The position numbers and the translations under genes are program-made. The notes under the pieces are model-generated. The model was not told the origin of the DNA, ran no database searches, and saw only the letters and a list, made by a program, of their open reading frames with translations. A stretch of 64,000 nt of DNA from Occultella kanbiaonis (GTDB taxonomy: Bacteria > Actinomycetota > Actinomycetes > Actinomycetales > Beutenbergiaceae), in assembly GCF_009708215.1 (NCBI RefSeq), contig NZ_CP046175.1:3472001-3536000 (forward strand), in the 5' to 3' direction. Below are positions 4,057 to 37,239 of the stretch, in pieces (positions within the stretch are counted from its first letter, which is position 1; each line of letters opens with the position of its first letter).

Positions 4057-4062
4057 GCGGCG

Positions 4063-5028: not shown

Positions 5029-5064
5029 GCCCGCGTACCACCTACTCTCGTCAGGAGAACCCCT

Positions 5065-7744: not shown

Positions 7745-7747
7745 CCG

Positions 7748-9452: not shown

Positions 9453-9461
9453 CATGATCCG

Positions 9462-9486: not shown

Positions 9487-9508
9487 ACGCACACCCAGGA
9501 TGGAGAAC

Positions 9509-12140: not shown

Positions 12141-12150
12141 CGCACCCGCC

Positions 12151-12235
12151 GGCGGCCGGTCGCCCTAGGTCCGAACGGGCCCGACGGCGGCCGGTCGCCC
12201 TCAGTCCGAACGGGCCCGACGGCGGCCGGTCGCCC
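12151..12235. repeat. 35-bp direct repeat, 2.4 copies, in a convergent intergenic region
   Basis: Units start at 12151, 12186 and 12221 (the last is 15 bp only). The unit begins GGCGGCCGGTCGCCC and ends GAACGGGCCCGAC; copies 1 and 2 differ at two bases. It lies between the converging CNNM and MntR genes and could mark their termination zone. Confidence 0.75.
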
Positions 12236-12276
12236 GCGTCGCGCGGGCGGCAGTCGGGTCGGGGTCGCCTCGGGCG

Positions 12277-13071: not shown

Positions 13072-13072
13072 C

Positions 13073-19468: not shown

Positions 19469-19816
19469 CCGGTTCGATGAGTGCCAAGGTCTGACTGCTG
19501 GCTCCACGACCGCAGCGGGCAAAGAAAGGCGCCGACGGCATGACCAAACAGTTCAGCCGCCGAGGTGGGCCTGGAACCCATCGAAGAGATCTCGTCTGGC
19601 ATCTGCACGCCGATCACACCGGCGGCCTCCTCGCAGCGAAACGCGTGCGCACCGTACCTGCTGCAGCTGTCGGGATAGACGAGGTCGTGAGTGCTGTTGG
19701 CAGCGACGGTGCTCGCACGCAGATGATGACCGGTCGACCAGGCGCGATTCGGCGGCGAGCGACAGGCCCGGCCGACGAGCGAGCTCCAGGCTGGTCATTC
19801 CGAACGACCTGGTCCG
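19469..19816. other. non-coding, possibly decayed segment (348 bp)
   Basis: Short overlapping frames on both strands lack ribosome sites and coding-like composition; codon-position GC bias of the neighbours is lost. It may be a remnant of a gene, but no family was recognised. It lies between the converging HNH gene and a Tat-exported protein gene. Confidence 0.5.
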
Positions 19817-23025: not shown

Positions 23026-25626
23026 CTACCCGCCGGATCCACCGACCCGCCGGGCCTGCCCTGCCCCCAGTCGCAGCCCCGCGTCCATCCGCTCGCCGCC
23101 GAGCACCAACGTGGCCACAACGAGCTCCCCACCCAGGCAACGCAACTCGAAGCCGCCGTCGCACTCACGCAGGTCGCCCCAACCCTCGTCGGTCAGTACC
23201 GGCCAGCTCCCACCGACCGGCGGCGCGTCCAGCGCGAGCGTGCCGGTGGTCGCGTCCCAGCGGTGCCCGGTGACGGCGTCCAGCACGCTCCACCCGGAGA
23301 GCGCACGCACGTAGTGGTCACCGCACTCCACCTGGTTGTACGGGTTCCGGCGACGTCCGTCGTACCGGCCGTGCAGCCCGCGCAGCACGGCGTCCGCCTC
23401 AGCGGTCAGGCCCTCCATGATCAGGTGCGCCGCGAGCTGCCCCTCGGAGCCCGTCCACACCTCGTCGCAGTACCTGGTGGGCACCTCGGGTCGCCCACCG
23501 CTGGGCCAGGTGCACATCAGGAGTCCGGTCTCGTCGCCGTCGGCGAACACGCGGTACCCGTTGACGAAGTCGGTGAAGCCGGTGCGCAGGTTGTGGCGCA
23601 CCACCGACCGCAGCGCCGTGCGCACGTGCTCGGCCGGCAGGATGTGCCCGAGGCCGAGCAGGTGCGCCCACCACTGCCCGATCAACTGGTCGCTCAGGCA
23701 CCCGGACTCCCACTGGAACACCCGCGGGTCGCCGACCTCGAGCACCTGCACGTAGTACTCACCGGTGAACAGCGCCTCGTCGTAGGCGGCGCTGCCCTTC
23801 TCGAACCACCCGCGCCACCGCCGCGCCACGTCCTCGCGGCCGACGAGCCGGGCCAGTTCCTCCCCCGCCCGCAACGCCGCGAGCCACAGGGTCCCCATGA
23901 ACGGGTTGAGCCCGGCGAGGTCGATGTCGTGGGTGGACGGCTGGATCCCGTGCAGCATCCCGGTCCCGCCGGTGTCCCACCTCGCCGCCACGTACTCGAC
24001 CAGCCGCTCCACGTTCGGCCAGTACCGGTCCAGCCACTCCTGCCCCGCGCCGCCGCGCACCTCCCGGTACGTCTTCAGAACGGTGCCGAGCATCCCGTCC
24101 AGCGCGGGCTCCTCCGGCCCTCCGATCAGCCGGTCCCACAGCTGTGGCAGGTACGTCGGCGAGATCACCCGGTGCGGGATGAAACCCTCCGGCGCCTGCA
24201 TCACGTCGAACTCGCACTCGCGCATGTCCCGTTCGATCTGCGGGAACAGCCGGGCGATCCCCTGGGCGTAGTTGTACACGTGGGTGCAATTCAGCGGGCA
24301 GGAGCCGCCGACCGACCCACCCCACATCGTGGTCGAGGCGCCCTGCACCCCCTCGAACCCGAAGAAGTGCCCGTCGGCCGTCCGGAAGAACGTCGGGCTG
24401 CGCACGATCGCGGCCTGCGCCGCGAGATGTTCGACGGCGTCGCTCGCCAGTGCGGTCCCGCGCAGCATCGTGGTCCACGCCCGGGAGTCGGCCTCCAGCT
24501 CCGCCCAGTCGCTGCGGACCCGGGCGGCGACCGCCTCGGCGTCGGGGTACACGGTCGTGTAGTGGTTGCCCAGCCAGAACCGGGTCGGCCCCCACTCGGG
24601 TCGGATCCCGCCGAACTGGATGAAGTTCATGTACCGGTTCGGGAAGTGCCAGGTCAGCGCGAACCGCACGGTGACGCTCTCACCCGGATCGACGGAGAAC
24701 TGGGCGGCCAGGCCACCGTTCCAGGTGCTGCCCTCGGGGCTCGCACCGGAGGCGGCCCAGGTCCCGCTCGGCTGCGGGTCGGCCATCGTCGTCGGCAGGT
24801 GCGCCCAGTCCTGCGCCCCGAACGGGTGCCGTGCGCGCAGGAAGTCCAGGAACTGCCGCGGGTGGGTCCACTGGGGCAGGGCCGAGGTGTACGGGGCGTC
24901 CGCGGTGAGCACCATCTGCCCGGCGCCGGGGTCCTCGGGAGCACGCGTGTGGTTCTCCAGGATCAGGTCGGTCCACCCGTCCCGGCGCCGGATCCGGTTG
25001 GTGTTGCCCCCGTACCCGGGCGCCCGGACGCCGTCCGGCGCCAGCGTCCCGTCGGAGCCGACGGCGTTCTGCACCGCCCCGCCCAGCCACCCGTGCACCG
25101 GCGTGACGTCGGTGTTCGTGATCGTGAAGGTGAACATCGCCGTCGGCAGGCTGCTGCGCTCGAGGTCCAGCGGCACCATCGGGGTGAACGCCTCGAGGCT
25201 GATCCGGACCGGCAGTTCCTCGTCGTGATAGTCGACCCGACCGAACGGGTAGGTGCCCGTGAAGGTCGTGCCGTGGACGCCGTCGGCGTCGGCGAGCAGG
25301 TCCCGCTGCCACTGCGGCACCTCGTCGTCGCTGACCATCGGGGTCCGCGTGGCGGCCGGGTCCGCCGGCGGCGCCTGGAGCACGCGAACCGCGTCGAACG
25401 GCGGCTCCCACTGCGCGATCCGGACGGCGAAGAAGGAGTACGGCAGGTCGCCGCGGTGGTTGCCGATGTTGTGCAGTTGCCACTGCCGCAGGCCACCGTC
25501 GGCGCCGATCGCGAGGTTCCCGGTGCCGATGCCGCCGAGCGGCATCGCCACGTGCCGGCCCTGCGTGTGCTCGATGGATCGGGCGACGGCGGAGGTCGCC
25601 TCCGTGGTCGGGCGGGTGTCAGTCAT
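23026..25626 (-). CDS. GH116 family glycoside hydrolase (candidate exo-beta-D-arabinofuranosidase)
   Basis: An 866-aa cytoplasmic (no signal peptide) GH116/DUF608 enzyme. It has an N-terminal beta-sandwich opening MPLGGIGTGNLAIGADG and an alpha/alpha barrel from about residue 380. Conserved blocks are GGSCPLNCTHVYNYAQG (440-456), DGMLGTVLKTYREV (510-523), GCLSDQLIGQWW (642-653, Asp646 the expected acid/base) and EVWTGSEGQLAAHLI (722-736). The nucleophile segment reads MLHGIQPSTHDID, without the Glu usual for beta-glucosidases. GH116 includes beta-glucosidases, glucosylceramidases and, as I recall, an exo-beta-D-arabinofuranosidase acting on mycobacterial arabinan. Context (importer, GH172, DUF4185) favours the last. 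It is the end gene of the operon, 21 bp after the MalG-type permease. Confidence 0.85.
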   Translation of the reverse strand: MTDTRPTTEATSAVARSIEHTQGRHVAMPLGGIGTGNLAIGADGGLRQWQLHNIGNHRGDLPYSFFAVRIAQWEPPFDAVRVLQAPPADPAATRTPMVSDDEVPQWQRDLLADADGVHGTTFTGTYPFGRVDYHDEELPVRISLEAFTPMVPLDLERSSLPTAMFTFTITNTDVTPVHGWLGGAVQNAVGSDGTLAPDGVRAPGYGGNTNRIRRRDGWTDLILENHTRAPEDPGAGQMVLTADAPYTSALPQWTHPRQFLDFLRARHPFGAQDWAHLPTTMADPQPSGTWAASGASPEGSTWNGGLAAQFSVDPGESVTVRFALTWHFPNRYMNFIQFGGIRPEWGPTRFWLGNHYTTVYPDAEAVAARVRSDWAELEADSRAWTTMLRGTALASDAVEHLAAQAAIVRSPTFFRTADGHFFGFEGVQGASTTMWGGSVGGSCPLNCTHVYNYAQGIARLFPQIERDMRECEFDVMQAPEGFIPHRVISPTYLPQLWDRLIGGPEEPALDGMLGTVLKTYREVRGGAGQEWLDRYWPNVERLVEYVAARWDTGGTGMLHGIQPSTHDIDLAGLNPFMGTLWLAALRAGEELARLVGREDVARRWRGWFEKGSAAYDEALFTGEYYVQVLEVGDPRVFQWESGCLSDQLIGQWWAHLLGLGHILPAEHVRTALRSVVRHNLRTGFTDFVNGYRVFADGDETGLLMCTWPSGGRPEVPTRYCDEVWTGSEGQLAAHLIMEGLTAEADAVLRGLHGRYDGRRRNPYNQVECGDHYVRALSGWSVLDAVTGHRWDATTGTLALDAPPVGGSWPVLTDEGWGDLRECDGGFELRCLGGELVVATLVLGGERMDAGLRLGAGQARRVGGSGG

Positions 25627-25647
25627 CGGTGCCGTTCGTCGTGGGGG

Positions 25648-26568
25648 TCATTTGATCCCGGAGATCCGGATGCCGCTGATGATGTAGCGCTGGAAGATCA
25701 GGAAGAGCACGATCACCGGCGTCGCGGCCAGCGTGGACCCGGCCAGCAGCAGCCCGTACTCGATGCGTCGTTCGGACCGGAACGTGGCCAGGTACTGCTG
25801 GATCTGGGTCAGCGCGGAGTCCGGTTCGGTGATCGTCATGATCGGCCACACGTACGCGTTCCAGAATGCCAGGAACGAGGTGATCCCGACCACCACGAAC
25901 ACCGGCTTGGACATCGGCAGGAAGATCGCCGTGAAGATCCGCCACCGGTCCGCGCCGTCGATGAGGGCCGCCTCCTCGATCGAGGTCGGGATGCCCAGGT
26001 AGAACTGCCGGATGAAGAAGATGTGCACCGCCGCGGCCGCGCCGGGGACCACCAGCACCGCGAGCGTGTTCAGCAGTCCCATCCGGGTCACGACGATGTA
26101 GGAGGTGAGCAGGATCGCCATGCCCGGGATGAACATCGTCATCAGGACGACCACCCAGATGGTCCGCTTGAACGCGAACTCCAGCCGCGCGAACGCGTAC
26201 GCGGCCATCGAGTTCACGGCGAGGCTCAGGGCCGCGAACAGCAGCGCCCCACCGAAGGACACCCCGACCGCCCGCAGGAACTGCGGGTCGGAGGCGATGT
26301 CGACGTAGTTCTGCGGTTGCCAGACGTCCGGGAAGAACTGGAACGGTGAGCTGACCACCTCGTTGCGGGCCTTGAACCCGGAGATCGCCATCCACGCCAG
26401 CGGGAACAGTGCGGCGAGGAAGATGGCCGCCGAGTACACGTACCGGAGTACGGCCCAGCCCGGGCCGCCGGCGCGGGCCGACCGTCGGTGCCGGTGCACG
26501 GCATCGCGCGCCCCCGCCGACCGGGCGGGGTCGGGTTCGGTGACGATGATCGGTGCGGACGCAGCCAT
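25648..26568 (-). CDS. carbohydrate ABC transporter permease, MalG type
   Basis: A 306-aa inner-membrane permease of the CUT1 family. It has six predicted helices, a hydrophobic start after an Arg/His-rich tail (VLRYVYSAAIFLAALFPLAWMAISGFK), and the ATPase-docking EAA loop EEAALIDGADRWRIFTAIFLPMSKP. Its ATG overlaps the stop of the first permease by one base (TGATG), which fixes the start. It would form the membrane channel with the MalF-type partner for oligosaccharides brought by the lipoprotein gene upstream. No ATP-binding subunit is encoded here, so a shared MsiK-type ATPase elsewhere is expected. Confidence 0.93.
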   Translation of the reverse strand: MAASAPIIVTEPDPARSAGARDAVHRHRRSARAGGPGWAVLRYVYSAAIFLAALFPLAWMAISGFKARNEVVSSPFQFFPDVWQPQNYVDIASDPQFLRAVGVSFGGALLFAALSLAVNSMAAYAFARLEFAFKRTIWVVVLMTMFIPGMAILLTSYIVVTRMGLLNTLAVLVVPGAAAAVHIFFIRQFYLGIPTSIEEAALIDGADRWRIFTAIFLPMSKPVFVVVGITSFLAFWNAYVWPIMTITEPDSALTQIQQYLATFRSERRIEYGLLLAGSTLAATPVIVLFLIFQRYIISGIRISGIK

Positions 26569-27503
26569 CAGGCATCCACCGCCTTCTCGGAGTTGATCAC
26601 CCTGAAGATCACCGCGGACAGCCCGCCCAGCACCACGAACAGCAGCAGTGCCGCGGCGATCGAGTAGCCGACGGTGTCGTCGTTGGTGAAGCGTAGGAAG
26701 ATGTGCAGGTTCGGCAGCAGGGTGGACTGAACCGGGCCGCCGGAGGTCATGATCAGCGGCAGCTCGTACTGCTGGATCGTGGCCACGAAGCAGGTGACGA
26801 GCAGGTACAGGCCGATGTTGCGCATCAGCGGGACCGTGATGAACACGGTCCGCTGCCACCAGTTCGCCCCGTCCAGCTCGGCCGACTCGTAGTAGCTCTC
26901 CGGGATGTCCAGGAGCCCGGCGAGCATGATCAGGGACGCGAGCCCGAGGCCGAGCCAGATCGCCGGCGCGGTCAGCGCGAGGAGGGCGGTGCTCGCGCTG
27001 CCCAGCCACGGCTGGTTCTCGAACCCGACCAGACCGATGAGCCAGTTCAGCAGCCCCTGCCGGTACTCGTAGATGAGCACGAACACGATCGAGGCGATCA
27101 CCCCCGAGATCACCGTCGGGATGTAGATGCTCACCTTGAGCAAAGTCCCCATCCTCTGCCCCATCGCCTTGACGAGGTTCGCGAACACGAACGCGAGGAT
27201 CAGGATCGCCGGGACCACGATCACTGAGAACCGCAGGCCCCGGCCGATCGAGGCCCAGAACACCGGGTCGGCGAGCACCAGGCGGAAGTTGCGGAGCCCC
27301 ACGAACACCGACTCCGTGTAGAAGCTCCAGTTGAAGAAGCTCACGTACCACGCGTAGACGAGCGGCCACAGCACGAAGATCCCGAGCAGGACCAGCGCCG
27401 GGGCCAGCATCAGGAACGCGATCCGGTTGTCGCGGTGGGCCGGCTTGGGGCGGCGGCGCGCCCGGCCCTTGGCCGGCGGCGCCTGCGCCTGGATTGTCGT
27501 CAT
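26568..27503 (-). CDS. carbohydrate ABC transporter permease, MalF type
   Basis: A 311-aa inner-membrane CUT1 permease. Six hydrophobic segments begin at RIAFLMLAPALVLLGIFVLWPL; the EAA loop reads YYESAELDGANWWQRTVFITVPL. The ATG at 27503 follows an AAGGTG element. A perfect 12-bp stem hairpin lies between it and the binding-protein gene and could set a lower permease level relative to the binding protein. Its stop overlaps the start of the second permease by one base. In this locus the likely cargo is D-arabino-oligosaccharides; that is inference from neighbours. Confidence 0.93.
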   Translation of the reverse strand: MTTIQAQAPPAKGRARRRPKPAHRDNRIAFLMLAPALVLLGIFVLWPLVYAWYVSFFNWSFYTESVFVGLRNFRLVLADPVFWASIGRGLRFSVIVVPAILILAFVFANLVKAMGQRMGTLLKVSIYIPTVISGVIASIVFVLIYEYRQGLLNWLIGLVGFENQPWLGSASTALLALTAPAIWLGLGLASLIMLAGLLDIPESYYESAELDGANWWQRTVFITVPLMRNIGLYLLVTCFVATIQQYELPLIMTSGGPVQSTLLPNLHIFLRFTNDDTVGYSIAAALLLFVVLGGLSAVIFRVINSEKAVDA

Positions 27504-27546
27504 CTCATCACCTTCGAAGAGTTCCCCGGTCGGAAGAGTCCAAGGC

Positions 27547-27581
27547 CGGGTGGGTGCGCCCGGCGGGGCCGCACCCACCCG
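27547..27581 (-). promoter_or_regulatory. intra-operon hairpin between binding protein and permeases
   Basis: CGGGTGGGTGCG (27547-27558) pairs perfectly with CGCACCCACCCG (27570-27581) around an 11-nt loop, just after the binding-protein stop. With no T-run and downstream genes of the same operon, it more likely stabilises the upstream mRNA end or attenuates read-through than terminates fully. Confidence 0.65.
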
Positions 27582-27588
27582 TCCTGTG

Positions 27589-28935
27589 TCAGCTCCCCGT
27601 ACCGGCCAGTTGGGAGTTCGCGATCTCGGTGTTGATCTTGTCGTTCGCCGCGGCCAGCGCCTCGGAGACGGGGGTGCCCTGCATGGCGGCCTCGATGGCC
27701 TCCCCCATCGCCAGGCTCACGTTCCACGGGTAGCCCGGCTCCGGCTGCGCGAACGGCACGATCTCCTCCTGGATGACGGCGTTCCACGGGTTCACGGTGT
27801 CCACGTCCGGTAGGGCGCTGATCGCCTCGGCCACGGACACCCGCGGCGAGACCTTGGAGAACTGGGTGGCCTCGAAGAACGGGACCACGTTCTCGGTGTC
27901 GCCACCGAGCGCCCACTCGATGAAGGTGGCGGCCTCCTCGGCCACCTCGGTGTTGCCGTCGACGGCCCAGGTCCAGCCGCCGAGGGTGGCCGTGGTCTGG
28001 CCGCTCTGCCCGTCGAAGGACGGCATCGGGGCGACCGCGACGTTCGGGACCAGGTCGGGGTAGTCGCTGAGCAGCTGGCTGGCCGCCCAGGAGCCGTTCG
28101 CCATCATGGCGTACTGCCCGTCACCGAACGTGGACGCGTCCGGGTAGCCGACGCCGTCCGCGGGCGGCAGCGCCCCGCTGGCGAACAGGTCCTGGAACGC
28201 CTGCAGCAGCGGTGCGTAGTCCTCGGTGGCCATGCCCTCGGACCAGTCGTCACTGATCGGCAGGTGCCCGGCCACGTTCCACTGGTAGCCCCAGGTGGAC
28301 CAGGACATGTCCGGCGCGTTCTGGGCCAGCCGCATCCCGAACACCTCGTCGTTCGTGAGCAGTTCCGCGTCGGCGACCAGTTCGTCCCAGGTGGTGGGTG
28401 GCCCGTCGATCCCGGCCGCCTCGAACAGGTCGGTGCGGTACCAGAGGATCGCGGACGGCTCCACGAGCATCGGGTACGCGTACTCCTCGCCGTCGACCGT
28501 GACCGAGCCGCGCACGTTCTCCTGCAGGTCGTCCCAGGCCTCGGCGCTGATCAGGTCCGAGAGCGGCGTGATCTGACTGGTGAGCGCTGCGTTGCGGACC
28601 CCGCCGTAGTTCATGGTGCGGATGTCCGGGGCGTTCCCGGCGGCCTGCGCGGCCGTCATCCGTTGCTCCCAGGCGTCGCCGGGCACCGCGGTGAGGGTCA
28701 CGTGCACCTCGTCCTGGGACTCGTTGTAGGAGTCCACGACGGACTCGTACCACTCGTTCTCCTCGTCGGTGAACGACTGCTGCCAGAACGTCACCTCGGT
28801 GACCCCCTCGGGAACCTCCTCGCCACTCGCGGAACCTTCGGGGCCGCCGTCGGGCGTTCCGCTGCAGGCCGCAAGCACCAGAGCGGTGGCGGCCACGACA
28901 CCGAGGCCGCCGGTCAATCTGCGTGTCGAACGCAT
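27589..28935 (-). CDS. sugar ABC transporter substrate-binding lipoprotein
   Basis: A 448-aa extracellular solute-binding protein (family 1), anchored to the membrane by a lipobox: LVLAAC with Cys24 after MRSTRRLTGGLGVVAATA. The mature protein starts with VTEVTFWQQSFTDEENEW, then AAGNAPDIRTMNYGG, the AILWYRTDLFEAAGI-PPTTWDEL hinge segment and GQYAMMANGSW. ATG at 28935 was chosen over an in-frame codon upstream because AAGGAGG lies five bases before it. It follows the DUF4185 lipoprotein by 44 bp and is followed by a strong hairpin and two permeases. The ligand is probably oligosaccharides released by the DUF4185 enzyme, an inference from context. Confidence 0.93.
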   Translation of the reverse strand: MRSTRRLTGGLGVVAATALVLAACSGTPDGGPEGSASGEEVPEGVTEVTFWQQSFTDEENEWYESVVDSYNESQDEVHVTLTAVPGDAWEQRMTAAQAAGNAPDIRTMNYGGVRNAALTSQITPLSDLISAEAWDDLQENVRGSVTVDGEEYAYPMLVEPSAILWYRTDLFEAAGIDGPPTTWDELVADAELLTNDEVFGMRLAQNAPDMSWSTWGYQWNVAGHLPISDDWSEGMATEDYAPLLQAFQDLFASGALPPADGVGYPDASTFGDGQYAMMANGSWAASQLLSDYPDLVPNVAVAPMPSFDGQSGQTTATLGGWTWAVDGNTEVAEEAATFIEWALGGDTENVVPFFEATQFSKVSPRVSVAEAISALPDVDTVNPWNAVIQEEIVPFAQPEPGYPWNVSLAMGEAIEAAMQGTPVSEALAAANDKINTEIANSQLAGTGS

Positions 28936-28979
28936 CTCATCCTCCTTGATGATCGGCTCCGGTGGAGCCTCGGTTGGTT

Positions 28980-30122
28980 TCACGCGGGCGCCGGCACGAG
29001 GTCGGCGCTGTACCAGAACACGTTGTAGGGACCCCAGATCGAGAGCGTGAAGTAGATCGTGAGGCCGTCATCGCTGACGTAGCGGGGATTCAGGTACGGG
29101 CTGTACAGCCCGGGCGTCTGCGCCTGGGTGGTCAGCACGTGCGGCTCGCTCCACGGACCCCAGGGGGTGATGCCCTCGGCGAGCACCGCGTCCCCGTCCG
29201 TGGAGTAAGTCATCAGCCAGCGTTCCAGGGTGGGGCTGTAGACGACGGAGAGTTCGCCGATGGTGCCGTCCAGGATGGTCTGCGCGTCTGCCATCGACTC
29301 CGACCAGATCGGGTCCCCGTCGTCGTCGGTCCCGGCGAAGTACCGGTACGCGCCCAGGTCCTCGACGGCTTCGGTACTGGCCGGGACCTTCATCAGCTGC
29401 ACCCCGCCGAACCGACCGGACGGGATGGACCAGAAGTACAGGAAGTCCTCCCCGTCCTCGGTCACCTCGGCCACCGAGACCTGGACGAAGTTCGAGTCGC
29501 CGGGCCACTGCGGGGCGGGCAGGGTCTCCCAGGTGGCGCCGTCGTCCGTGCTGCGGGCCAGGCCCGCGTGGTTGGCGTCCCACTGGCCCGGGTCGCCCCA
29601 GTGCAGCACGGACATGTACTGCAGGTAGAGCGTCTCCCCGACGGCGAAGCCGTGGGTGGGGATCTTCGTCACCTCTCCCCCGGCGTCGTTGCCGTCGTGC
29701 TCGCCGGGCACCACCTCGAGGGCGAGCCCGATGTCGTCGAGCAGCCAGCCGTCGAAGGTGAGGCCGTCGGCCGGGTCGTCGTCGGTGGTGTAGGCCACCG
29801 CGTTCGAGCGCCAGTTGCCACCCTGCCCGCCGACGGCGTCGGGGTCTCGGGTGCCGAACGTGTCCCCGAACACGAGGTAGGTCACCTCGCCGACGTTGAA
29901 CATCGAGCCGAGGTCGGTGCCTGCCACGGCCACCGCGGCGGTGTCGTTGAGGGTGCTGTCCGGGCCGGTGAGCTGAGCGATCCGGGTGACGTTCGCGACG
30001 CCGTCGAGCACGAACGGGCGGTCGGGGTCGGTGTTCACGTCGGGTCCTCCTCCGGTCGAGCCGCACGCGACAAGTGCGGCGGCGGCCGCCGCCGAGATCG
30101 TCGCCATGGCCGCCCGCCTCAT
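28980..30122 (-). CDS. DUF4185 lipoprotein, candidate GH183 endo-D-arabinanase
   Basis: A 380-aa surface lipoprotein: the signal MRRAAMATISAAAAAALVAC has a lipobox at LVAC (Cys20). The mature part is a DUF4185 beta-propeller: GEVTYLVFGDTFG, GNWRSNAVAYTTD, EVTKIPTHGFAVG, LARSTDDGATWE, ELSVVYSPTLERWLMTYS and GPWSEPHVL follow in the family order. DUF4185 founded glycoside hydrolase family GH183, whose members, as I recall, are endo-D-arabinanases cleaving mycobacterial arabinogalactan and lipoarabinomannan. Cell-surface placement fits an endo-enzyme supplying the importer encoded next. It overlaps the GH172 gene by ATGA. Activity is inferred; catalytic acids were not assigned by eye. Confidence 0.75.
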   Translation of the reverse strand: MRRAAMATISAAAAAALVACGSTGGGPDVNTDPDRPFVLDGVANVTRIAQLTGPDSTLNDTAAVAVAGTDLGSMFNVGEVTYLVFGDTFGTRDPDAVGGQGGNWRSNAVAYTTDDDPADGLTFDGWLLDDIGLALEVVPGEHDGNDAGGEVTKIPTHGFAVGETLYLQYMSVLHWGDPGQWDANHAGLARSTDDGATWETLPAPQWPGDSNFVQVSVAEVTEDGEDFLYFWSIPSGRFGGVQLMKVPASTEAVEDLGAYRYFAGTDDDGDPIWSESMADAQTILDGTIGELSVVYSPTLERWLMTYSTDGDAVLAEGITPWGPWSEPHVLTTQAQTPGLYSPYLNPRYVSDDGLTIYFTLSIWGPYNVFWYSADLVPAPA

Positions 30123-31249
30123 CCCAGCCTCGGCAGCCGCTGGCCCACCGGTGCCAGCGTGAGGTGTTCGGCCGGGGTCTCCTGGTACCAGTAGGCGGTG
30201 GAGGAGAGGTCGTCGCTGCGGCGGTTCGCATGCCCGTGCTCGATGGTGACCCGGATCGACGTGGTGAACGGCACCGGGTCCTCGATGTGGAACCGGTACG
30301 TCGAGACCTGCCCGGACCAGTTCTCACCGCCCGGCAGCGTGATGCCGTGGTACGGCGCGCTGTAGCTCTCCGACGGGCACCAGGCCGTGTTGAAGTAGTC
30401 CTCGGTGCCGGTGCCGTGCAGGCTCGGTGGCCACGCCTCGCCGTCGACGAAGATCATGTCGTCGCCCTCGCCGTACCAGTTCCACTCGGCGGTGTGGCGC
30501 AGGTTCGTCACGTTCAGGACGCAGCCGACGTAGTGCCCGCGGCCGGTGGTCTCCAGGATCGTGTAGTTGCCGTCCCCGGTGAGGTTCGGGCCCTCGAAGA
30601 GCAGCTGGGAGTTCGTCAGGCCCGCCGCGGTGGTCTCGTCCAGGCCGGCCGTCGGGTTCTCCCGGTTCCAGGACGCGTGGAACCGCCCGAGGCCGTCCTC
30701 GAGGACGTCGAAGGCGTCGTAGTCGATGTAGTAGTAGAACCAGAGCACCTCCTCCGCGCACTCGCTGATGATCTCGAACCGGGCCCGGGTCGCGAAGGGC
30801 ATATGGAAGAACGAGTTCAGCGCCTTGCCGTCCTGCGGGCTCATCTGCAGCGGCGCCGACGCGTAGTTCACGGTGCGCCCGTGGCCCACCCCGAAGAAGT
30901 CCCCGAGCGGCACCAGCACCGAGGGGTGCGGCGAGTCGTCCCAGTAGACCGCCAGCACCAGCTTGCGCAGGAAGTCCCGATCGGCGCTGTCCGGGCTCGG
31001 CGCGTCCCGAGGGGCCACGGTCATCCAGATGTGGTTGATCGAACCGGCGCCGCGCAGGTCGGCGAGCTCGACGGTCTCGCCGGGGTGCAGCGTGAGCCGG
31101 TCCTCGTTGCCCCCGGACCGGTCCCAGCTGGACGCGCGCAGGCGCCGGTGCGTGCGCAGCCGCGGCAGGTCGCGCAGGCTGCTGCCGTACGGGCCGTAGC
31201 CCCCAAGGGCGGTTGCCATCTCGATCGTCTCCATCTCCTCCGCGGTCAT
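30119..31249 (-). CDS. GH172 (DUF2961) enzyme, candidate exo-alpha-D-arabinofuranosidase (paralogue 1)
   Basis: A 376-aa cytoplasmic protein without signal peptide. The DUF2961 jelly-roll marks are INHIWMTVAP, LVPLGDFFG, YGEGDDMIFVDGE (Glu261) and LHGTGTEDYFNTAW (Glu283); the two glutamates sit at the family's catalytic positions. GH172 contains alpha-D-fructofuranosidase/difructose anhydride synthases and exo-alpha-D-arabinofuranosidases, whose substrates are configurationally close. GEGD replaces the more usual GEGE seen in the second copy at 33267, so the two may differ in linkage. The stop overlaps the DUF4185 gene (ATGA); the kinase gene ends 12 bp upstream. It would trim imported oligosaccharides from the non-reducing end. 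Confidence 0.83.
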   Translation of the reverse strand: MTAEEMETIEMATALGGYGPYGSSLRDLPRLRTHRRLRASSWDRSGGNEDRLTLHPGETVELADLRGAGSINHIWMTVAPRDAPSPDSADRDFLRKLVLAVYWDDSPHPSVLVPLGDFFGVGHGRTVNYASAPLQMSPQDGKALNSFFHMPFATRARFEIISECAEEVLWFYYYIDYDAFDVLEDGLGRFHASWNRENPTAGLDETTAAGLTNSQLLFEGPNLTGDGNYTILETTGRGHYVGCVLNVTNLRHTAEWNWYGEGDDMIFVDGEAWPPSLHGTGTEDYFNTAWCPSESYSAPYHGITLPGGENWSGQVSTYRFHIEDPVPFTTSIRVTIEHGHANRRSDDLSSTAYWYQETPAEHLTLAPVGQRLPRLG

Positions 31250-31260
31250 GTCTGCCTCGC

Positions 31261-32208
31261 TCAGGTCCCGGCAGGCGCGCCGGCGAGTTCGAGCACCTCG
31301 GCACGGGTCGGCGCGGACGGCGCGCCGCCACGCCGGGTCACGGCGACGGCGGCCGCGGCGTTCGCGAACGCCACCGCCTCGGTGAGGGCGTCGCCGGCGG
31401 CCAGGCGGGCGCCGAGGCTGCCGCAGAAGGCGTCCCCGGCGCCGATCGTGTCCACCACCTCCACCCGGTGCCCGGGCACGTGCACCTCCGGGCGGCCCGG
31501 CTCGAGCACGAGCGCGCCGTCCGGTCCGAGGGTGACGATCAGGGCGTGGGTCCGGCCCGCCACGGCCCGGCGCGCCACGTCGAGGACCGGTTCGCCGGCG
31601 TCGGCGCCGGCGAGCTGGCGTAGTTCGCCCTCGTTGGGGATGAGCACGTCGACAGCGTCCCCGAGCTCCGTGGGGACGGTCGCCGCGGGCGCGGGGTTGA
31701 GCAGGACGCGCACGCCGGCGGCCCGGGCGATCCGGGCGGCGTGCACGGTCGCGTCCATCGGCAGCTCGAGCTGGAGGAGCAGCACCGCCGCGGACTCGAT
31801 CCGGTCGCGGGCCGCCTCGACGTCGGCCACCGTGACGGCCAGGTTCGCCCGTGGGATCACGATGATCGAGTTCTGGCCGGCCTGGTCCAGCACCGGCAGA
31901 CCCACCCCGGTGCCGTGCTCGGGATCGGTGCGCACGTCCGCGGCACCGATCCCCTCGCCCGCCAGGAACTCCCGGAACTCCGCGGCGAAGAGGTCGTCGC
32001 CGAGGCGGCCGATCACGGTGGTGGCGGCCCCGGCCCGCGCCGCGGCGACGGCCTGGTTGAAACCCTTGCCACCCACGAAGGTCGCGAAGTGGGATCCGAT
32101 CAGGGTCTCGCCCGGGCCGGGCCGTCGGGGGGCAGTGGCGACCAGGTCGTACATGAAGGAGGCCAGCACGCAGACACCGCCGCGGCCCGTGAGTTGGGCG
32201 GCGTTCAT
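31261..32208 (-). CDS. PfkB/ribokinase-family kinase, candidate D-arabinose kinase
   Basis: A 315-aa cytoplasmic sugar kinase. PfkB signature 1 is GGKGFNQAVAAARAGA (46-61) and signature 2 is DTIGAGDAFCGSL, with the catalytic Asp in GAGD. The layout matches ribokinase (GGKGxNQA), implying a pentose with phosphate transfer to O-5. Its ATG overlaps the stop of the arabinose-5-phosphate-isomerase-like gene (ATGA), so both are co-translated. Together they would convert D-arabinose to D-arabinose 5-phosphate and then D-ribulose 5-phosphate. D-ribose remains an alternative substrate, but the GH172/GH183/GH116 neighbours and the SIS isomerase favour D-arabinose. Confidence 0.85.
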   Translation of the reverse strand: MNAAQLTGRGGVCVLASFMYDLVATAPRRPGPGETLIGSHFATFVGGKGFNQAVAAARAGAATTVIGRLGDDLFAAEFREFLAGEGIGAADVRTDPEHGTGVGLPVLDQAGQNSIIVIPRANLAVTVADVEAARDRIESAAVLLLQLELPMDATVHAARIARAAGVRVLLNPAPAATVPTELGDAVDVLIPNEGELRQLAGADAGEPVLDVARRAVAGRTHALIVTLGPDGALVLEPGRPEVHVPGHRVEVVDTIGAGDAFCGSLGARLAAGDALTEAVAFANAAAAVAVTRRGGAPSAPTRAEVLELAGAPAGT

Positions 32209-32876
32209 GGGGTCACCTGCCGCGGCGTCGAGGACACCTGCCGCGGAGCGGTCCCGAGCAGCTGGTGGCCGAGCGTCCCACCCGGGTGGCGTTCGGCGAA
32301 CTGTGCCGGGGTGAAGCCGGAGAGCGTCATCAGTGCGATCGCGAGGGCGTCCCCCACCGCGAGGGTCGACGCCGTCGAGGCCGTCGGGGCGAGCCCGAGG
32401 GGATCGGCCTCTCCGTCAACGGAGATGTCCAGCACCACACGGGCGAAGAAGGCCAGCGGCGAGTCCGGGTTGCGGGTCATCGCGATGATCGGCACACCCC
32501 ACCCGGTGAGCATGTGCGCGAACTGACACACCTCCGCGGTCTCGCCGGAGTTCGAGATCAGGATCGCGACGTCCGCCGGCGTGGCCGCGCCGGAGTCGCC
32601 GTGCAGGGCCTCACCGGCGTGCACGAACTGGGCCGGTGTGCCGGTGCTGGTCAGGGTGGCCGCGATCTTCTGAGCGATGTGGCCGGACTTGCCGAGCCCG
32701 GAGACCAGGACGCGGCCGCTGGAGCCATGGATCAGGGTGATCGCCTCCGCCAGGGCGGGCTGGACCCGGTCCGCCGTGCGGGCGATCGAGCGGGCCTCGA
32801 CGAGCATGGCGGCATGGGCGGCGGAGATCGCGTCCGCAAGGGTGGCCACGGTGCCCCTCTCAGTGCGTCGGTGCAT
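32205..32876 (-). CDS. SIS-domain sugar-phosphate isomerase, arabinose-5-phosphate isomerase type
   Basis: A 223-aa KpsF/GutQ/KdsD-like isomerase of the SIS fold, first gene of the operon. The active-site strings of D-arabinose-5-phosphate isomerases are kept: GLGKSGHIAQKIAATLTSTG, FVHAGEALHGD, ISNSGETAE and RHPGGTLGH, including the Lys, the two His and Glu expected for aldose-ketose isomerisation. It lacks the C-terminal CBS pair of KpsF and GutQ, like the single-domain enzymes described from E. coli CFT073 and Bacteroides. There is no LPS or capsule-Kdo context, so a catabolic role in D-arabinose use is likely. An internal GTG (32849) could be the true start. Two operators and a TTGACA/TACTCT promoter lie just upstream. 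Confidence 0.85.
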   Translation of the reverse strand: MHRRTERGTVATLADAISAAHAAMLVEARSIARTADRVQPALAEAITLIHGSSGRVLVSGLGKSGHIAQKIAATLTSTGTPAQFVHAGEALHGDSGAATPADVAILISNSGETAEVCQFAHMLTGWGVPIIAMTRNPDSPLAFFARVVLDISVDGEADPLGLAPTASTASTLAVGDALAIALMTLSGFTPAQFAERHPGGTLGHQLLGTAPRQVSSTPRQVTP

Positions 32877-32891
32877 GAGCGTTGCGTGCTG

Positions 32892-32917
32892 GTAATCGAT
32901 TACTAGAAATCGATTAC
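32892..32917. promoter_or_regulatory. tandem LacI-type operators of operon A (GTAATCGATTAC)
   Basis: A perfect 12-bp palindrome GTAATCGATTAC (32892-32903) is followed 14 bp on by GAAATCGATTAC (32906-32917), the same site with two changes in one arm. They start four bases after the -10 box, where a bound repressor would block transcription. The central CG is typical of LacI-family sites. The palindrome recurs before the second operon at 37220. Confidence 0.75.
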
Positions 32918-32920
32918 TTG

Positions 32921-32949
32921 AGAGTAGGTGCGGTACGCCCGGATGTCAA
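32921..32949 (-). promoter_or_regulatory. promoter of the D-arabinan-type operon A
   Basis: On the minus strand a perfect -35 TTGACA (32944-32949) and -10 TACTCT (32921-32926) are separated by 17 bp, about 50 bp upstream of the isomerase gene. The expected start site falls inside the first operator. Confidence 0.7.
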
Positions 32950-33266
32950 CGGGCCACGGCCGACGGGTTGCGATGGCCAACCTGACCAGCCCGGTCACCT
33001 CCCCCGCCACCTTCACGCGCCGCCCGCCGCCGTCACGCCCCGCCCGCCGCCACGCGCCACCCAGCCGCCGCCACGCGCCGCCCGCCGCCACGCGCCACGC
33101 GCCACCCAACCGCCGTCCCGCGCCGCTCGCCCACCGTCACGCCCCGGCGAACGCGAGGTTGTTGGCTTCCGCGGGCGATCAGGAGCCAACGATGTCGCGT
33201 TCGACGGGCCGCCAGGCCGGGCTGGGCTGGGCCGTGACCCTGCCGGGGCTGGCCCGGGCCGGCCGG
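32950..33266. repeat. inter-operon region with GC-only low-complexity repeats (about 33006-33150)
   Basis: Between the operon A promoter and the end of the second GH172 gene lies a run of degenerate CGCCGCCACGCGCCACC-like units of roughly 15-20 bp, with no gene. It could form strong secondary structure and terminate operon B transcripts. Nothing else was recognised. Confidence 0.6.
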
Positions 33267-34337
33267 TCAGAGGATCTCGAGCCGATCGACGTCCGGGGCC
33301 GGCGGCCGGGTGGTGACCGGCGCGTCCAGGTAGAAGAACGCGGTGGAGGCGATGTCGTCGTGCAGCGGGAGGTAGCGGCCGCCGCTGCGCCAGCCGAGGG
33401 CCTGGAGGTCCACGGAGAGGTCGGTATCGAAATGGATCGGGTCCGGCACGTGCCAGCGGTACATGCCGAAGCGCTGCTGGGAGGCGTACAGCCCGTCCGG
33501 ACGCAGCACCTGGTGCAGGCCCAGGTACGGCGTCGTGAACTCCGTGTAGCCCTGGCCGGGCACGTCGAAGTTCCACGCACCCCCGAAGTAGTCCTCGGTG
33601 CCGGTGCCACAGATGGTCGGGTACGGCTCGGCCGCCGAGGCGTCACCGTCCAGGTAGAACTTGATCTCCCCCTCGCCCCACCAGCCGGTGGAGTTCACAC
33701 CCCAGGCGACGTAGGTGCCGACGTACTGTCCGCGGCCACGGACGCCGTCGAGCAGCACGTGTGTGGTCGCGTCCGGCAGCGGGTTGCTGCGTCGCCACTG
33801 CGCGTGCAGCCGGCCGGTGCGGGCCACGTCCCCGCCCTCCTCGTAGGTGACCTGGAAGTACACGACCACGGGCTCGGCACCGAGATTCTCGATGGTCAGG
33901 TGGGCGCCGTCGGAGAACGGCATCGGCCAGTAGGAGTTGAAGCCGCCGTGGGGGTTCACGGCGACCATCGCCGAGCTGAGCTGGGCGAAGGCACCCCAGC
34001 CCTGACCGAAGAAGTCCCCGACCGGTACCTCGATCGCCGGCTCGCTCGCGGAGTCCCAGTACGCCCGCAGCAACAGCCGGCGCCAGTTGTCGGTGTGCGT
34101 GGTCAGCCAGATGTGGGTGATCCGCCCGGCACCGGGGATCCGGGCCAGGTCGTAGGTCTGCCCGGGCTCGATGCGCACGCTCGGGGAGACCTTCCAGCCG
34201 ACGCCCAGGTCCCGGGCGGCCTCGGCGCCGGTGCCCGTGGTGGCCCGCCCTCCCCCGCCCTTGGCGCCGTCGGGGTTCTCCGGGCTGATCGAGCGGGTCC
34301 GTACGTCTCGGAGCGCGGCGAGGTCATTGGTGAACAT
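33267..34337 (-). CDS. GH172 (DUF2961) enzyme, candidate exo-alpha-D-arabinofuranosidase (paralogue 2)
   Basis: A 356-aa cytoplasmic GH172 enzyme with canonical motifs: ITHIWLTTHTDNWRR, EVPVGDFFGQGWG, WWGEGEIKFYLDGD (Glu222, Glu224) and CGTGTEDYFGGAWNF (Glu248). It shares the fold but only moderate sequence with the copy at 30119; its GEGE and FGGAWNF strings are the consensus form. It follows the LacI gene by 35 bp in operon B. Likely action is release of terminal alpha-D-arabinofuranose from imported oligosaccharides, with D-fructofuranosides as the alternative known GH172 substrate. The start is ATG at 34337. Confidence 0.85.
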   Translation of the reverse strand: MFTNDLAALRDVRTRSISPENPDGAKGGGGRATTGTGAEAARDLGVGWKVSPSVRIEPGQTYDLARIPGAGRITHIWLTTHTDNWRRLLLRAYWDSASEPAIEVPVGDFFGQGWGAFAQLSSAMVAVNPHGGFNSYWPMPFSDGAHLTIENLGAEPVVVYFQVTYEEGGDVARTGRLHAQWRRSNPLPDATTHVLLDGVRGRGQYVGTYVAWGVNSTGWWGEGEIKFYLDGDASAAEPYPTICGTGTEDYFGGAWNFDVPGQGYTEFTTPYLGLHQVLRPDGLYASQQRFGMYRWHVPDPIHFDTDLSVDLQALGWRSGGRYLPLHDDIASTAFFYLDAPVTTRPPAPDVDRLEIL

Positions 34338-34372
34338 GGGGTCTCAATCTGTGTCGGCAGCGGTGGGGCGGG

Positions 34373-35392
34373 TCAGACGGTGGCGGTGGTGCCGCGGATC
34401 AGCAGGCGCGGGGGCAGGAGCAGATGGATCGGTTCGATCTCCGGGTCCTCGGCCCGCGCCACGAGGCGCTCGGCGGCCCGGGTGCCCATCTCGTCGACGG
34501 GCTGCGCCACGAGCGTCACGGCCGGACTGACCATCTGGGTCCACCGGTCGTCGTCGACACCCACGAGGGAGATCTCGTCCGGCATCCGCAGCCCGCTGGC
34601 CTGCACGCCGCGGTAGGCCCCGGTGGTCAGCGGACCGTTCATCGCGAAGATCGCATCGGGGTGGTTCCGCCGGCTGGCGAGCGCCGCCCGCACGGCGGTC
34701 TCGGCGTCGTCGATCTTGAGGTCGGTCCGCACCATCCTGGCCGGGTCGAGGCTCAGCCCGGCGTCGGTGAGCGCCATCCGGACGCCCTGGAGCCGGTCCT
34801 CGGTGGTGCTCACCCCGGACGGCCCGGCCAGGCACATGATGTCGCGGTGGCCGAGCATGAGCAGGTGCTCGGTGGCTAGCCGTCCGGCCTCGACGTTGTC
34901 CAGCAGGATCGTGTCCCCGGTGAAGTCGTGGACCCGCCGGTCGACGACCACGGTGGGCACCTGCGCGGTCAGCAACGCGCTCAGGTCGGACTCCGCCTCC
35001 GAGGTCACCGAGACCACCACGCCCGCCATCCGCTGGGCCACGGCCGTGGACAGGTAGGAGCGTTCACGGTCGAGCTGCTCGTCGGTGTTGCAGAGCATCA
35101 CCGAGATGCCGGAGCGGACCGCGACGTGCTCGACCGCCGTCACCAGGGACGTGAAGAACGGGTTCTGCACGTCGGAGACGATCGCGGCCCAGACGTCCGC
35201 GCGCTGGCGCCGTAGCGCCCGGCCGTTCGGGTTCGGCACGTACCGGGTGACCTCGGCGGCCCGGCGGACCCGGACGGCGAGCTCCGGGTCGACGGTGCCG
35301 AGCCCGTTCAGCACCCGGGACACGGTCGCCGTCGAGACCCCGGCCTCCCGGGCGACGTCCGTGATCCGTGCCGCTCGCTGCTGCCCACTCAC
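34373..35392 (-). CDS. LacI family repressor of the D-arabinan-type locus
   Basis: A 339-aa LacI/GalR regulator. Its helix-turn-helix is ITDVAREAGVSTATVSRVLNGLG (about residues 10-32), with hinge NPNGRALRRQRAD. The effector domain runs from WAAIVSDVQNPFFTSLV to the C-terminal PPRLLIRGTTATV. The GTG start lies in a GTGA overlap with the DUF4185-like gene, which fixes it. Being inside operon B it is expected to repress itself and operon A through GTAATCGATTAC sites at 32892, 32906 and 37220. The inducer may be D-arabinose or a short arabino-oligosaccharide. Confidence 0.9.
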   Translation of the reverse strand: MSGQQRAARITDVAREAGVSTATVSRVLNGLGTVDPELAVRVRRAAEVTRYVPNPNGRALRRQRADVWAAIVSDVQNPFFTSLVTAVEHVAVRSGISVMLCNTDEQLDRERSYLSTAVAQRMAGVVVSVTSEAESDLSALLTAQVPTVVVDRRVHDFTGDTILLDNVEAGRLATEHLLMLGHRDIMCLAGPSGVSTTEDRLQGVRMALTDAGLSLDPARMVRTDLKIDDAETAVRAALASRRNHPDAIFAMNGPLTTGAYRGVQASGLRMPDEISLVGVDDDRWTQMVSPAVTLVAQPVDEMGTRAAERLVARAEDPEIEPIHLLLPPRLLIRGTTATV

Positions 35393-37203
35393 GGTGCCAT
35401 CCTCCCGCCGTCGCCGGTTCCGGGCCATGCGCCGAACACGGCGAGTTCGGACACCGACGTGTACCCGGCCCAGCCCCCGGCGCGACCGACCAGCCGGACC
35501 CCGGTGCCGACCTGTGGCTCCACCGTGAAGGTGTAGGTCCGGGTCCCCGTGGCGGTCCAGTCCGCCGGGTAGGGCGGATCCACGGTGGCCGGCACGACGG
35601 TCCAGTCCGCGCCGCGGCGGACCTGTACCTGCGGTGGCGCGTCGAACCATCCGGACCCGTAATCGTGCGGACCGGAGGTGAACTCCAGTCGTTCGAAGCG
35701 GACCGGACCGGGCCACGTGTAGCCCCAGTACTCGGTGTCCTTGACCAGCCCGTTCCAGGAGTCCTCGGCCCGGTCGGTACGGCCGTCGTTGAGGACCTCG
35801 ATACGCCCGCTCCGGCATGCGGTGGCGATCGCACGGGTCCCGGGCGCGGTGGCCAGGTTGCCGTCGGCAGGCTCCGCGACCGGTGCCGGTCCGGCGGTGC
35901 CCGGCTCAGGCATCGGGTCCAGGCGCAGCGGCCGCAGCGAGAAGTGGTAGCTCGAGCCGCCGTAGGTCGAGGCGCCCACGAACCAGTTGGACTGGACCCA
36001 CGCGTCCCGGCCGTCCGCGCTCAGGAACTTGCTCGGGATGGTTGTGGCGTAGCCGCCGTGCCGGGGTTCGGCGGAGCGCGGGCCGGCCCACGGGAATGGG
36101 CCGAAGTCGTGGCTCAGGAACGGCCGCCACGGTCCCCACGGTGCGGGCGCCTCGTAGAACTCGAACGTGTACTCGGTCCAGGACGTGTACAGGTACCGGG
36201 CCAGTCCCGGGTTGTAGACGATCCCGCCCTGGGCGAGCACCGACCCGGGCACCGGGGGCGGCGCCATCGGGACCGGCGCCGCGGTGCCGACCCGACGGGT
36301 GTCGGTGAGGACGGCCACGCGATCGGTGAGACGAGGAGACCAGGAGGGGACGCCGTCGGGCGTGAGTCCGCTGAAGAACGCCCAGGCGGCGCGGTCCAGG
36401 ACCGAGGCCGCCGGGACGCGAGCCAGGTACAGGTCCTGCGGGTCCGGTACGACGCCCGAGTACGAGGTGCGCCAGTTGTGGTCGAGGCCGTACGCGTACA
36501 CGTAGCCGGCCGGGTCCGCCTCGCCCGGCCCGACGGCGTCGCGCAGCACGGCGGCGCCCGTGTTGCTCTGCCCGAAATCGAGGAACATCACCGTGGTGAA
36601 CTCGTCGGTGAACATGGCGCGCTCGGGCGCGGTCCAGGTGCGACCGTAGTCGCGGGAGCGGACGATGCCGGCCGCGGGCGCCGTGTTGAACGTGTCCGGC
36701 GAGGGGCCGCAGCGCAGGTCCTGCACGGCCAGGTACAGCTCGTCGTGCCCGTCACCGTCGCCGTCGACGGCCACCATGCCGGTCGGCTTGCTGTTGAACC
36801 GGGCCGGGTCGGTCCAGACCGGCGCGACGTCCCGCCCGGACGCCAGCCGCTGCCCGCTCAGGCCGGAGGCCGGGTCGCCGTCGATGCGGTTGATGACGAT
36901 GTCCGACCACGGCCCGTCGGAGAATCCGAGGCCGTCCCCGCACGCGGCATACAGGCCACCGTCGTCGGCCCACGCGCTCGGCCAGAGGTCTCCGTCGCTC
37001 GGTGAGGAGACGGTGGCCGCGTAGGAGAGGGCGGCGACCGCGAAGAAGTCCGACGGCGGGGGCGCAGTACCGGGACGTTCGGCACCGCCGCGGGTGGTTC
37101 CGTGGGCGTCGTCGCCCGTGCGGGCGGCGCGGTCGGGCGGCACGCCACGGTCCGCGCGGGGGGCCACCCCGGGTATGCCGGTGAACTCCTCAGCCTGAGT
37201 CAC
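35389..37203 (-). CDS. DUF4185-like beta-propeller protein with discoidin-like C-terminal domain
   Basis: A 604-aa protein, first gene of operon B. Residues ~50-440 form a DUF4185-like propeller: SDGDLWPSAWADDGGLYAAC-GDGLGF, the Ca-binding-like VDGDGDGHDELYLAV, SRDYGRTWTAPE, YNPGLARYLYTSW and GPWRPF. The last ~150 residues (RIEVLNDGRTDRAEDSWNGL, EYWGYTWPGPVRFERLEF, VSELAVFGAW) look like an F5/8 type C (CBM32-like) carbohydrate-binding domain. No signal peptide or lipobox is visible from the GTG start, which has GGAGG upstream, so its location is puzzling for an endo-acting enzyme. Operator GTAATCGATTAC lies 17 bp upstream. Activity on D-arabinan is inferred. Confidence 0.7.
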   Translation of the reverse strand: MTQAEEFTGIPGVAPRADRGVPPDRAARTGDDAHGTTRGGAERPGTAPPPSDFFAVAALSYAATVSSPSDGDLWPSAWADDGGLYAACGDGLGFSDGPWSDIVINRIDGDPASGLSGQRLASGRDVAPVWTDPARFNSKPTGMVAVDGDGDGHDELYLAVQDLRCGPSPDTFNTAPAAGIVRSRDYGRTWTAPERAMFTDEFTTVMFLDFGQSNTGAAVLRDAVGPGEADPAGYVYAYGLDHNWRTSYSGVVPDPQDLYLARVPAASVLDRAAWAFFSGLTPDGVPSWSPRLTDRVAVLTDTRRVGTAAPVPMAPPPVPGSVLAQGGIVYNPGLARYLYTSWTEYTFEFYEAPAPWGPWRPFLSHDFGPFPWAGPRSAEPRHGGYATTIPSKFLSADGRDAWVQSNWFVGASTYGGSSYHFSLRPLRLDPMPEPGTAGPAPVAEPADGNLATAPGTRAIATACRSGRIEVLNDGRTDRAEDSWNGLVKDTEYWGYTWPGPVRFERLEFTSGPHDYGSGWFDAPPQVQVRRGADWTVVPATVDPPYPADWTATGTRTYTFTVEPQVGTGVRLVGRAGGWAGYTSVSELAVFGAWPGTGDGGRMAP

Positions 37204-37219: not shown

Positions 37220-37239
37220 GTAATCGATTACGCGTAATC
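37220..37239. promoter_or_regulatory. overlapping LacI-type operators before operon B
   Basis: GTAATCGATTAC (37220-37231) overlaps a second perfect palindrome GATTACGCGTAATC (37226-37239), giving three GATTAC half-sites in 20 bp. The first palindrome is identical to that before operon A. A possible -35 TTGCCA lies just upstream, but the -10 is unclear. Confidence 0.75.

Follow-up and report, generated by a model that had tools for sequence, protein, structure and literature searches.

Which polymer a compact set of eleven genes in Occultella kanbiaonis takes apart, and by which route the released sugar reaches central metabolism, are the questions raised by a locus in a 64,000-nucleotide stretch of this genome (positions 3,472,001 to 3,536,000 of contig NZ_CP046175.1, hereafter the window; the complete genome is a single contig of 5,648,255 bases). 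The locus spans window positions 23026-37203, with all genes on the minus strand (Table 1). Read from 37203 downward, it encodes a DUF4185 protein of 604 amino acids, a LacI regulator, a first GH172 protein (GH172-A), a KpsF-type SIS-domain protein, a PfkB kinase, a second GH172 protein (GH172-B), a DUF4185 lipoprotein, a solute-binding protein, two permeases and a GH116 protein. We consider it highly probable that this is a D-arabinose-responsive locus for D-arabinan utilisation in which a kinase acts on D-arabinose before an isomerase does. The locus is of a known kind, and its sugar-entry module is what sets it apart.

The eleven co-directional genes named in a preliminary description of the window were all recovered, as each protein has a Pfam match above cut-off. 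The families GH116 (both domains), GH172 and DUF4185, on which that description leaned, were all matched: DUF2961/GH172 with 286.7 bits in both copies, the DUF4185 lipoprotein with 277.4 bits and the 604-residue DUF4185 protein with 40.5 bits (cut-off 39.5). Pfam also names the LacI, SIS, PfkB, solute-binding and two permease proteins. In NCBIfam, six of the ten proteins of the initial scan matched no model, and no family was named for either DUF4185 protein, either GH172 protein or the GH116 protein; the matches of the remaining ones were to KpsF/GutQ, ribokinase, LacI and importer families, none above the curated cut-off. All eleven genes recur in the same order in three other genomes of the genus, and for this reason the locus is not a chance assemblage. 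Both GH172-A and GH172-B are present in the four genomes of the genus examined, and in the O. kanbiaonis genome GH172 is confined to the locus.

The hydrolases resemble characterised D-arabinan enzymes. Among known structures, GH172-A matches ExoMA1 (8IC8) with 594 bits (the next structure with 114 bits) and retains the equivalent of Asn253, a residue said to block fructofuranose (PMC10509167). The GH183 lipoprotein aligns with EndoMA1 at 175 bits and keeps the equivalents of D33, D51, R198 and E243. The GH116 protein scores 426 bits against ExoMA2, an enzyme of subfamily 4, versus 104 against bacterial beta-glucosidases, and is about 35% identical to the Microbacterium GH116 enzymes. Four of its residues (E425, H449, R486 and D567), invariant in an 18-sequence alignment, are read as the ExoMA2 nucleophile Glu431, His446, Arg483 and acid/base Asp557 (the numbering of the ExoMA2 PDB chain appears to run 4 ahead of that in the paper). 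In a pairwise alignment with ExoMA2, which differs from the 18-sequence one, a Gly stands opposite Glu431 and Ser or Arg around Arg483; the idea that the nucleophile had been lost was dropped because E425 and G426 are invariant across the 18 sequences. In a metagenome-assembled genome labelled Mycobacterium (L032, positions 10001-13701), a GH172-A (67%) and a GH116 gene (59%, far closer than the Microbacterium GH116 enzymes) sit between nusA-like and infB-like genes (by eye).

The preliminary description had treated the two DUF4185 proteins as equal GH183 enzymes, which their residues do not support. Only the lipoprotein keeps all the catalytic residues. The 604-residue protein conserves the D33 and D51 positions, but all 14 aligned members of its family carry Gln at the position of Glu243, and the substitution E243Q nearly abolished EndoMA1 activity (PMC10509167). 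Inspection by eye showed no signal peptide in the proteins of the four genus members, and homologues at six other loci (L157, L039, L028, L030, L021 and L023) begin with signal-peptide- or lipobox-like stretches (by eye). Judged by its residues, this protein is not a standard endo-arabinanase. Two more DUF4185 genes lie elsewhere in the genome. One (at about 4.028 Mb, L112 positions 9588-10892) encodes an apparently secreted protein next to CUT1-like permeases and dehydrogenase-like and enolase-superfamily-like proteins (by eye), perhaps a second sugar locus; the other (at about 2.5995 Mb, L111 positions 9450-10499) is without an evident signal peptide, and recognisable sugar genes were not seen near it.

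GH172-B is nearest to BACUNI_00161 (285 bits), followed by alphaFFase1 (263) and DgGH172c (259). The kinship with alphaFFase1, an enzyme of difructose dianhydride, and the report that GH172 enzymes also cleave the D-arabinofuranosides of pili (PMC10115798) would suit a locus serving some other glycan that contains D-arabinofuranose or fructofuranose (difructose anhydride, fructan, pili or other wall glycans) in place of mycobacterial D-arabinan. We regard this as unlikely: at the specificity site (the Gly299 position of alphaFFase1) GH172-B reads FNTAWCP, like the FNTSWCP of DgGH172c, which is active on para-nitrophenyl-alpha-D-arabinofuranoside (PMC10115798), and unlike the FNHAWG of alphaFFase1. 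Asn253 in GH172-A and the likeness of the GH183 and GH116 proteins to EndoMA1 and ExoMA2 also speak for D-arabinan, and there is no evident role for an arabinose-5-phosphate isomerase in the use of fructose.

The sugar-entry genes were followed into other genomes. A search for the SIS protein in 394 genomes of the window's class gave five strong matches (at least 175 bits): three in small genomes of family f33, one in another genome of the genus and one in the window itself; in all five a kinase lies beside the SIS gene. Weaker matches of 83-97 bits in families f11 and f42 (G383, G266, G337 and G095) were kept out of the module count, and those below 48 bits were left out; four weak SIS loci (L092-L095) have no PfkB match within about 1.5 kb. 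The G383 locus was rejected as a pair locus, since an FGGY-like kinase adjoins (by eye) and the Lys of GKSG is missing; there (L113, positions 8252-10374) the distant SIS protein stands directly beside that kinase, with a ribose-type importer nearby (by eye), and the pairing is a different one. A kinase search of 20 genomes (19 reached through named loci) yielded the pair in Kribbella sindirgiensis and Bacillus sp. Marseille-Q3570, both picked for having the two genes; the Kribbella pairing, found through the kinase, is thus by selection. With the SIS protein of the latter strain as query, 398 Bacilli genomes (its source included) gave 13 matches at E 1e-25, of which nine are short and four are long, CBS-type proteins adjoining kdsA or kdsB. 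A PfkB kinase gene adjoins the short SIS gene, or lies one gene away, in all 17 loci (four from the genus, Kribbella, three f33 and nine Bacilli).

Within the Bacilli the pair keeps company with GH172, which occurs in 22 of the 398 genomes and in six of the nine with a short SIS protein, always within 4 kb of the pair (Fisher p 1.1e-6; five of eight without the query source, p 1.3e-5). A fucose-type isomerase domain (Fucose_iso_C) is found in none of the six GH172 Bacilli that carry the pair versus 12 of the 16 that do not (p 0.0028; 11 of 16 if strong matches alone are taken; zero of five versus 12 of 16 without the query source, p 0.0062), and the 68 Bacilli that have a fucose-type isomerase all lack the pair. 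In the other three Bacilli pairs the neighbour is a permease of the FucP type that passes the TIGR00885 cut-off; in E. coli, FucP transports D-arabinose as well.

The residues of the two proteins bear on what they handle. The window isomerase has the SIS domain and the motifs common to KdsD-type proteins. GKSG, HGD and HP[GS]G, which we take to be the KdsD active-site motifs, are present in all 17 short isomerases; 16 of these read EAD and one ESD, and the four CBS-bearing, biosynthetic proteins read EAC. The likeness to the arabinose-5-phosphate isomerases KdsD and GutQ lies in the domain and the conserved motifs, and the difference in the missing CBS domains and the catabolic neighbours. The window kinase shares with ribokinase RbsK the PfkB family and alignable N-x-D and GGKG regions, and differs from it by Met at the site of Asn14. 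This site is Met in 16 of the 17 paired kinases and Ile in one (L178), whereas 26 other kinase matches have Asn in 22 rows (21 distinct genes, L019 and L129 being one gene), Thr in two, Met in one and one unaligned row (L150); L153 (under 80 bits), L143 and L152 (both below threshold) were left out of the count. A single Met14 kinase fell among the unlinked ones (L144); it adjoins a window-like importer in the genome of Bacillus sp. Marseille-Q3570, and GH172 lies about 13 kb from it. In E. coli ribokinase, Asn14 contacts ribose and formed no hydrogen bond with D-arabinose in simulations, and the KM for D-arabinose is 470 mM (PMC9604405).

It could be argued that the pair handles another sugar (e.g., ribose) or makes arabinose 5-phosphate for biosynthesis, given that the known arabinose-5-phosphate isomerases, such as KdsD, serve the synthesis of 3-deoxy-D-manno-octulosonate (Kdo), and that the closest kinase families are ribokinases. 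We find this quite unlikely, as the four Bacilli KdsD proteins have CBS-length tails, EAC in place of EAD and kdsA or kdsB neighbours, whereas most short SIS proteins adjoin a LacI gene together with importers, FucP or GH172.

A shared regulatory site accompanies the pair. The palindrome GTAATCGATTAC lies upstream of the SIS and DUF4185 genes in all four genus members, although its surroundings are much diverged in one of them (L107), and would be the site bound by LacI. In the 5.65 Mb genome it occurs exactly at two places, both in the locus (the reversed control at none); with one mismatch allowed it has three matches in the window, against a mean of 0.01 in shuffled windows. Beyond the window, seven of the other 16 pair loci hold exact copies (control palindromes: mean 0.015, maximum 1), including four loci beyond the genus (L108, L172, L176 and L177) where the copy is upstream of SIS. 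One of these, in an f33 genome (L108, positions 1796-9884), has the pair and the exact operator together with a LacI gene and what looks by eye like an ABC importer of the ribose type; it has no hydrolases, and is possibly a locus for uptake of free D-arabinose. Among the GH172-A loci of named genomes (the best 80 of a larger set), nine hold the palindrome somewhere with at most one mismatch: in Microlunatus flavus (L029) an exact copy precedes GH172-A by about 90 bases, and at L009, L014 and L019 a one-mismatch copy precedes the GH172-A match by 40-100 bases. It is likely that the SIS-kinase pair is a dedicated D-arabinose entry module of Actinomycetota (Kribbella) and Bacillota (Bacillus), that D-arabinan loci can carry either this module or one of fucose isomerase and ribulokinase, and that a LacI operator shared between phyla governs the pair.

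As for the source of the polymer, a search of the complete genome for the arabinosyltransferase EmbABC (PF04602) gave no match (the control was positive in Corynebacterium glutamicum), and therefore the D-arabinan substrate is probably foreign; the cell probably does not make D-arabinan itself, and would feed on mycobacterial walls. That the locus remodels the cell's own wall, as mycobacterial GH183 enzymes acting on their own kind of D-arabinan might suggest (PMC10115798), is very improbable in view of this absence and of an importer and sugar-entry enzymes that point to feeding. The assignment to D-arabinan utilisation made in the preliminary description thus gains from the close matches to characterised endo- and exo-acting enzymes, from the importer, kinase, isomerase and LacI that stand with them and from the lack of an EmbABC match.

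We propose that D-arabinan would be cleaved on the cell surface by the GH183 lipoprotein and the oligosaccharides brought in by the binding-protein importer, and that intracellular GH172-A and GH172-B (alpha) and GH116 (beta) would release D-arabinose. The ribokinase-like kinase would then add a phosphate to O5 of D-arabinose. From the resulting arabinose 5-phosphate the CBS-less KdsD-type isomerase would make ribulose 5-phosphate, which would enter the pentose phosphate pathway. LacI, bound at GTAATCGATTAC before the DUF4185 and isomerase genes, would be released when the substrate arrives. The gene content, residues, conservation, co-occurrence and conserved palindrome are observed; each catalytic activity, the binding of LacI, the inducer and the polymer eaten are predictions from them.

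Several points weigh against the kinase-first reading. The isomerase stays under the TIGR00393 (KpsF) cut-off (196.8 versus 203.7 bits) and lacks CBS domains, and the kinase falls below that of the TIGR02152 ribokinase equivalog (275.6 versus 299.65 bits). The Met at the Asn14 site is suggestive only, because in a plant ribokinase the mutant of the equivalent residue was little changed in ribose activity (PMC9604405). In the kinase tree (which omits L153, L150 and L019) the paired kinases form two groups, starred there, plus L178, and a single origin is not rejected (approximately unbiased test, p 0.281); two origins are accordingly not claimed. The exact operator is seen at only seven of the 16 outside pair loci, three of them in the genus, and GTAATCGATTAC is absent near the pair at L109, L110, L173, L174 and L178. 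Window-type hydrolases and importers are missing from the flanks examined at two f33 loci (L109 and L110) and at the Kribbella one (L154). The FucP-type permeases remain below the stricter NF007524 model (263-314 versus 427 bits), and the Fisher values, which overstate independence because the Bacilli genomes share ancestry, serve as guides only. The pathway via arabinose 5-phosphate is the best reading, and activity, growth and induction are predictions of it.

If the kinase-first route is correct, the locus would supply a gene for a catabolic D-arabinose 5-kinase (EC 2.7.1.54). In the open-access literature (titles and abstract beginnings, among the matches listed), none of three things was described: a gene for a bacterial D-arabinose 5-kinase, an arabinose-5-phosphate isomerase with a catabolic role, or a LacI operator for D-arabinose. 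The kinase activity is said to be known from old Propionibacterium work, and an arabinose-5-phosphate isomerase has reportedly been studied in a Gram-positive bacterium; the open-access literature searched brought up neither report. Our data suggest that D-arabinan users burn D-arabinose by two alternative routes, one of them without assigned genes in the literature surveyed. The Met14 kinase, the CBS-less EAD isomerase and GTAATCGATTAC may serve as markers for further D-arabinan degraders and for enzymes useful in mycobacterial wall analysis. The kinase may also help in the production of arabinose 5-phosphate, at which E. coli ribokinase is poor (PMC9604405).

The features of the locus are collected in Table 1, in which the starts of the LacI (GTG), solute-binding protein and both permease genes are corrected ones. 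No transporter ATPase gene is among the eleven; importers of the CUT1 kind often share an ATPase encoded elsewhere.

Table 1. Genes and predicted operator sites of the D-arabinan locus, in window coordinates.
Feature	Position	Strand	Remarks
DUF4185-type protein, 604 aa, divergent subfamily	35389..37203	-	Gln325 at EndoMA1 Glu243 position; signal peptide not seen
LacI-family regulator	34373..35392	-	start overlaps end of DUF4185 gene
GH172-A, ExoMA1-type exo-alpha-D-arabinofuranosidase (predicted)	33267..34337	-	594 bits to 8IC8, Asn253 equivalent kept; signal peptide not seen
CBS-less KdsD/KpsF-type sugar-phosphate isomerase (predicted arabinose-5-phosphate isomerase)	32205..32876	-	Pfam, NCBIfam, motifs
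PfkB/ribokinase-like kinase (predicted D-arabinose 5-kinase)	31261..32208	-	Met at ribokinase Asn14 site
GH172-B, DgGH172c/BACUNI_00161-type	30119..31249	-	FNTAWCP motif; signal peptide not seen
GH183 endo-D-arabinanase-type lipoprotein	28980..30122	-	lipobox LVAC (by eye); D70, D87, R237, E290 = EndoMA1 D33, D51, R198, E243
Sugar-binding lipoprotein (solute-binding protein) of CUT1-type importer	27589..28935	-	Pfam
Importer permease 1	26568..27503	-	Pfam
Importer permease 2	25648..26568	-	Pfam
GH116, ExoMA2-like exo-beta-D-arabinofuranosidase candidate	23026..25626	-	E425, H449, R486, D567 = ExoMA2 E431, H446, R483, D557
Predicted LacI operator GTAATCGATTAC	32892..32903	.	upstream of isomerase gene
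Second operator copy	32906..32917	.	one mismatch
Predicted LacI operator GTAATCGATTAC	37220..37231	.	upstream of DUF4185 gene

Just downstream of the locus (window 19817-20764) a secreted-looking protein matches PF21311, a phage receptor-binding beta-propeller family (40.6 bits, cut-off 23.7), and has a homologue at the same place in L155. Window positions 18001-20000 stand out from the remainder of the window by their strand asymmetry, which is strong (GC skew -0.223, AT skew 0.354).

The preliminary description had held the locus to be undescribed as a unit. As such it is not new, because Shimokawa et al. 2023 (PMC10509167) describe in Microbacterium arabinogalactanolyticum a locus that unites, like that of the window, GH183, GH172 and GH116 enzymes, an importer dependent on a solute-binding protein, an isomerase and a kinase in one cluster. 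Induction by D-arabinose and mycobacterial wall extract was strong for its GH183 and GH116 genes, significant for the binding-protein gene and milder for GH172, and related clusters are shown in other Actinobacteria (PMC10509167). Endo-enzymes outside and exo-enzymes inside the cell are proposed there, as we propose here; the available text speaks of four DUF4185 proteins and one GH172, whereas the window has two GH172, a single GH183 lipoprotein resembling EndoMA1 and a further, divergent DUF4185 protein. In the Bacteroidota, PUL42 of Dysgonomonas gadei likewise pairs GH172 with GH183 D-arabinan enzymes, and on D-arabinan a predicted fucose isomerase was the most abundant carbohydrate-active enzyme, i.e., the isomerase comes first (PMC10115798).

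Sugar entry is where the window departs from the relatives typed: the preliminary description had named the isomerase and kinase correctly, and what it had overlooked is that they imply an order of steps opposite to that of the fucose-isomerase route. The genome of M. arabinogalactanolyticum itself lies outside the compared loci, and the available text of PMC10509167 gives no family for its isomerase and kinase. Around the 80 GH172-A loci, flanks of at most 10 kb (shorter at contig ends) gave no tblastn match (E 1e-6) of the window SIS protein; two of these genomes (Kribbella sindirgiensis and Bacillus sp. Marseille-Q3570) carry the pair elsewhere. Conversely, Fucose_iso_C (PF02952) has no match in the window genome (E. 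coli control positive), and a protein at L005 matches it below cut-off. Three typed relatives are isomerase-first. Microbacterium aerolatum (L014) and Sanguibacter (L012) have a Fucose_iso_C isomerase and an FGGY kinase, with no KpsF-type protein in the flanks examined. The third, Paenibacillus sp. PL91 (L049), shares with the window the order GH172-A, LacI, two entry genes, GH172-B, GH183, solute-binding protein and permeases; its entry genes, unlike those of the window, are FucI (1078 bits) and ribulokinase (782 bits), and they lie between LacI and GH172-B, in the neighbourhood taken in the window by the SIS and kinase genes.

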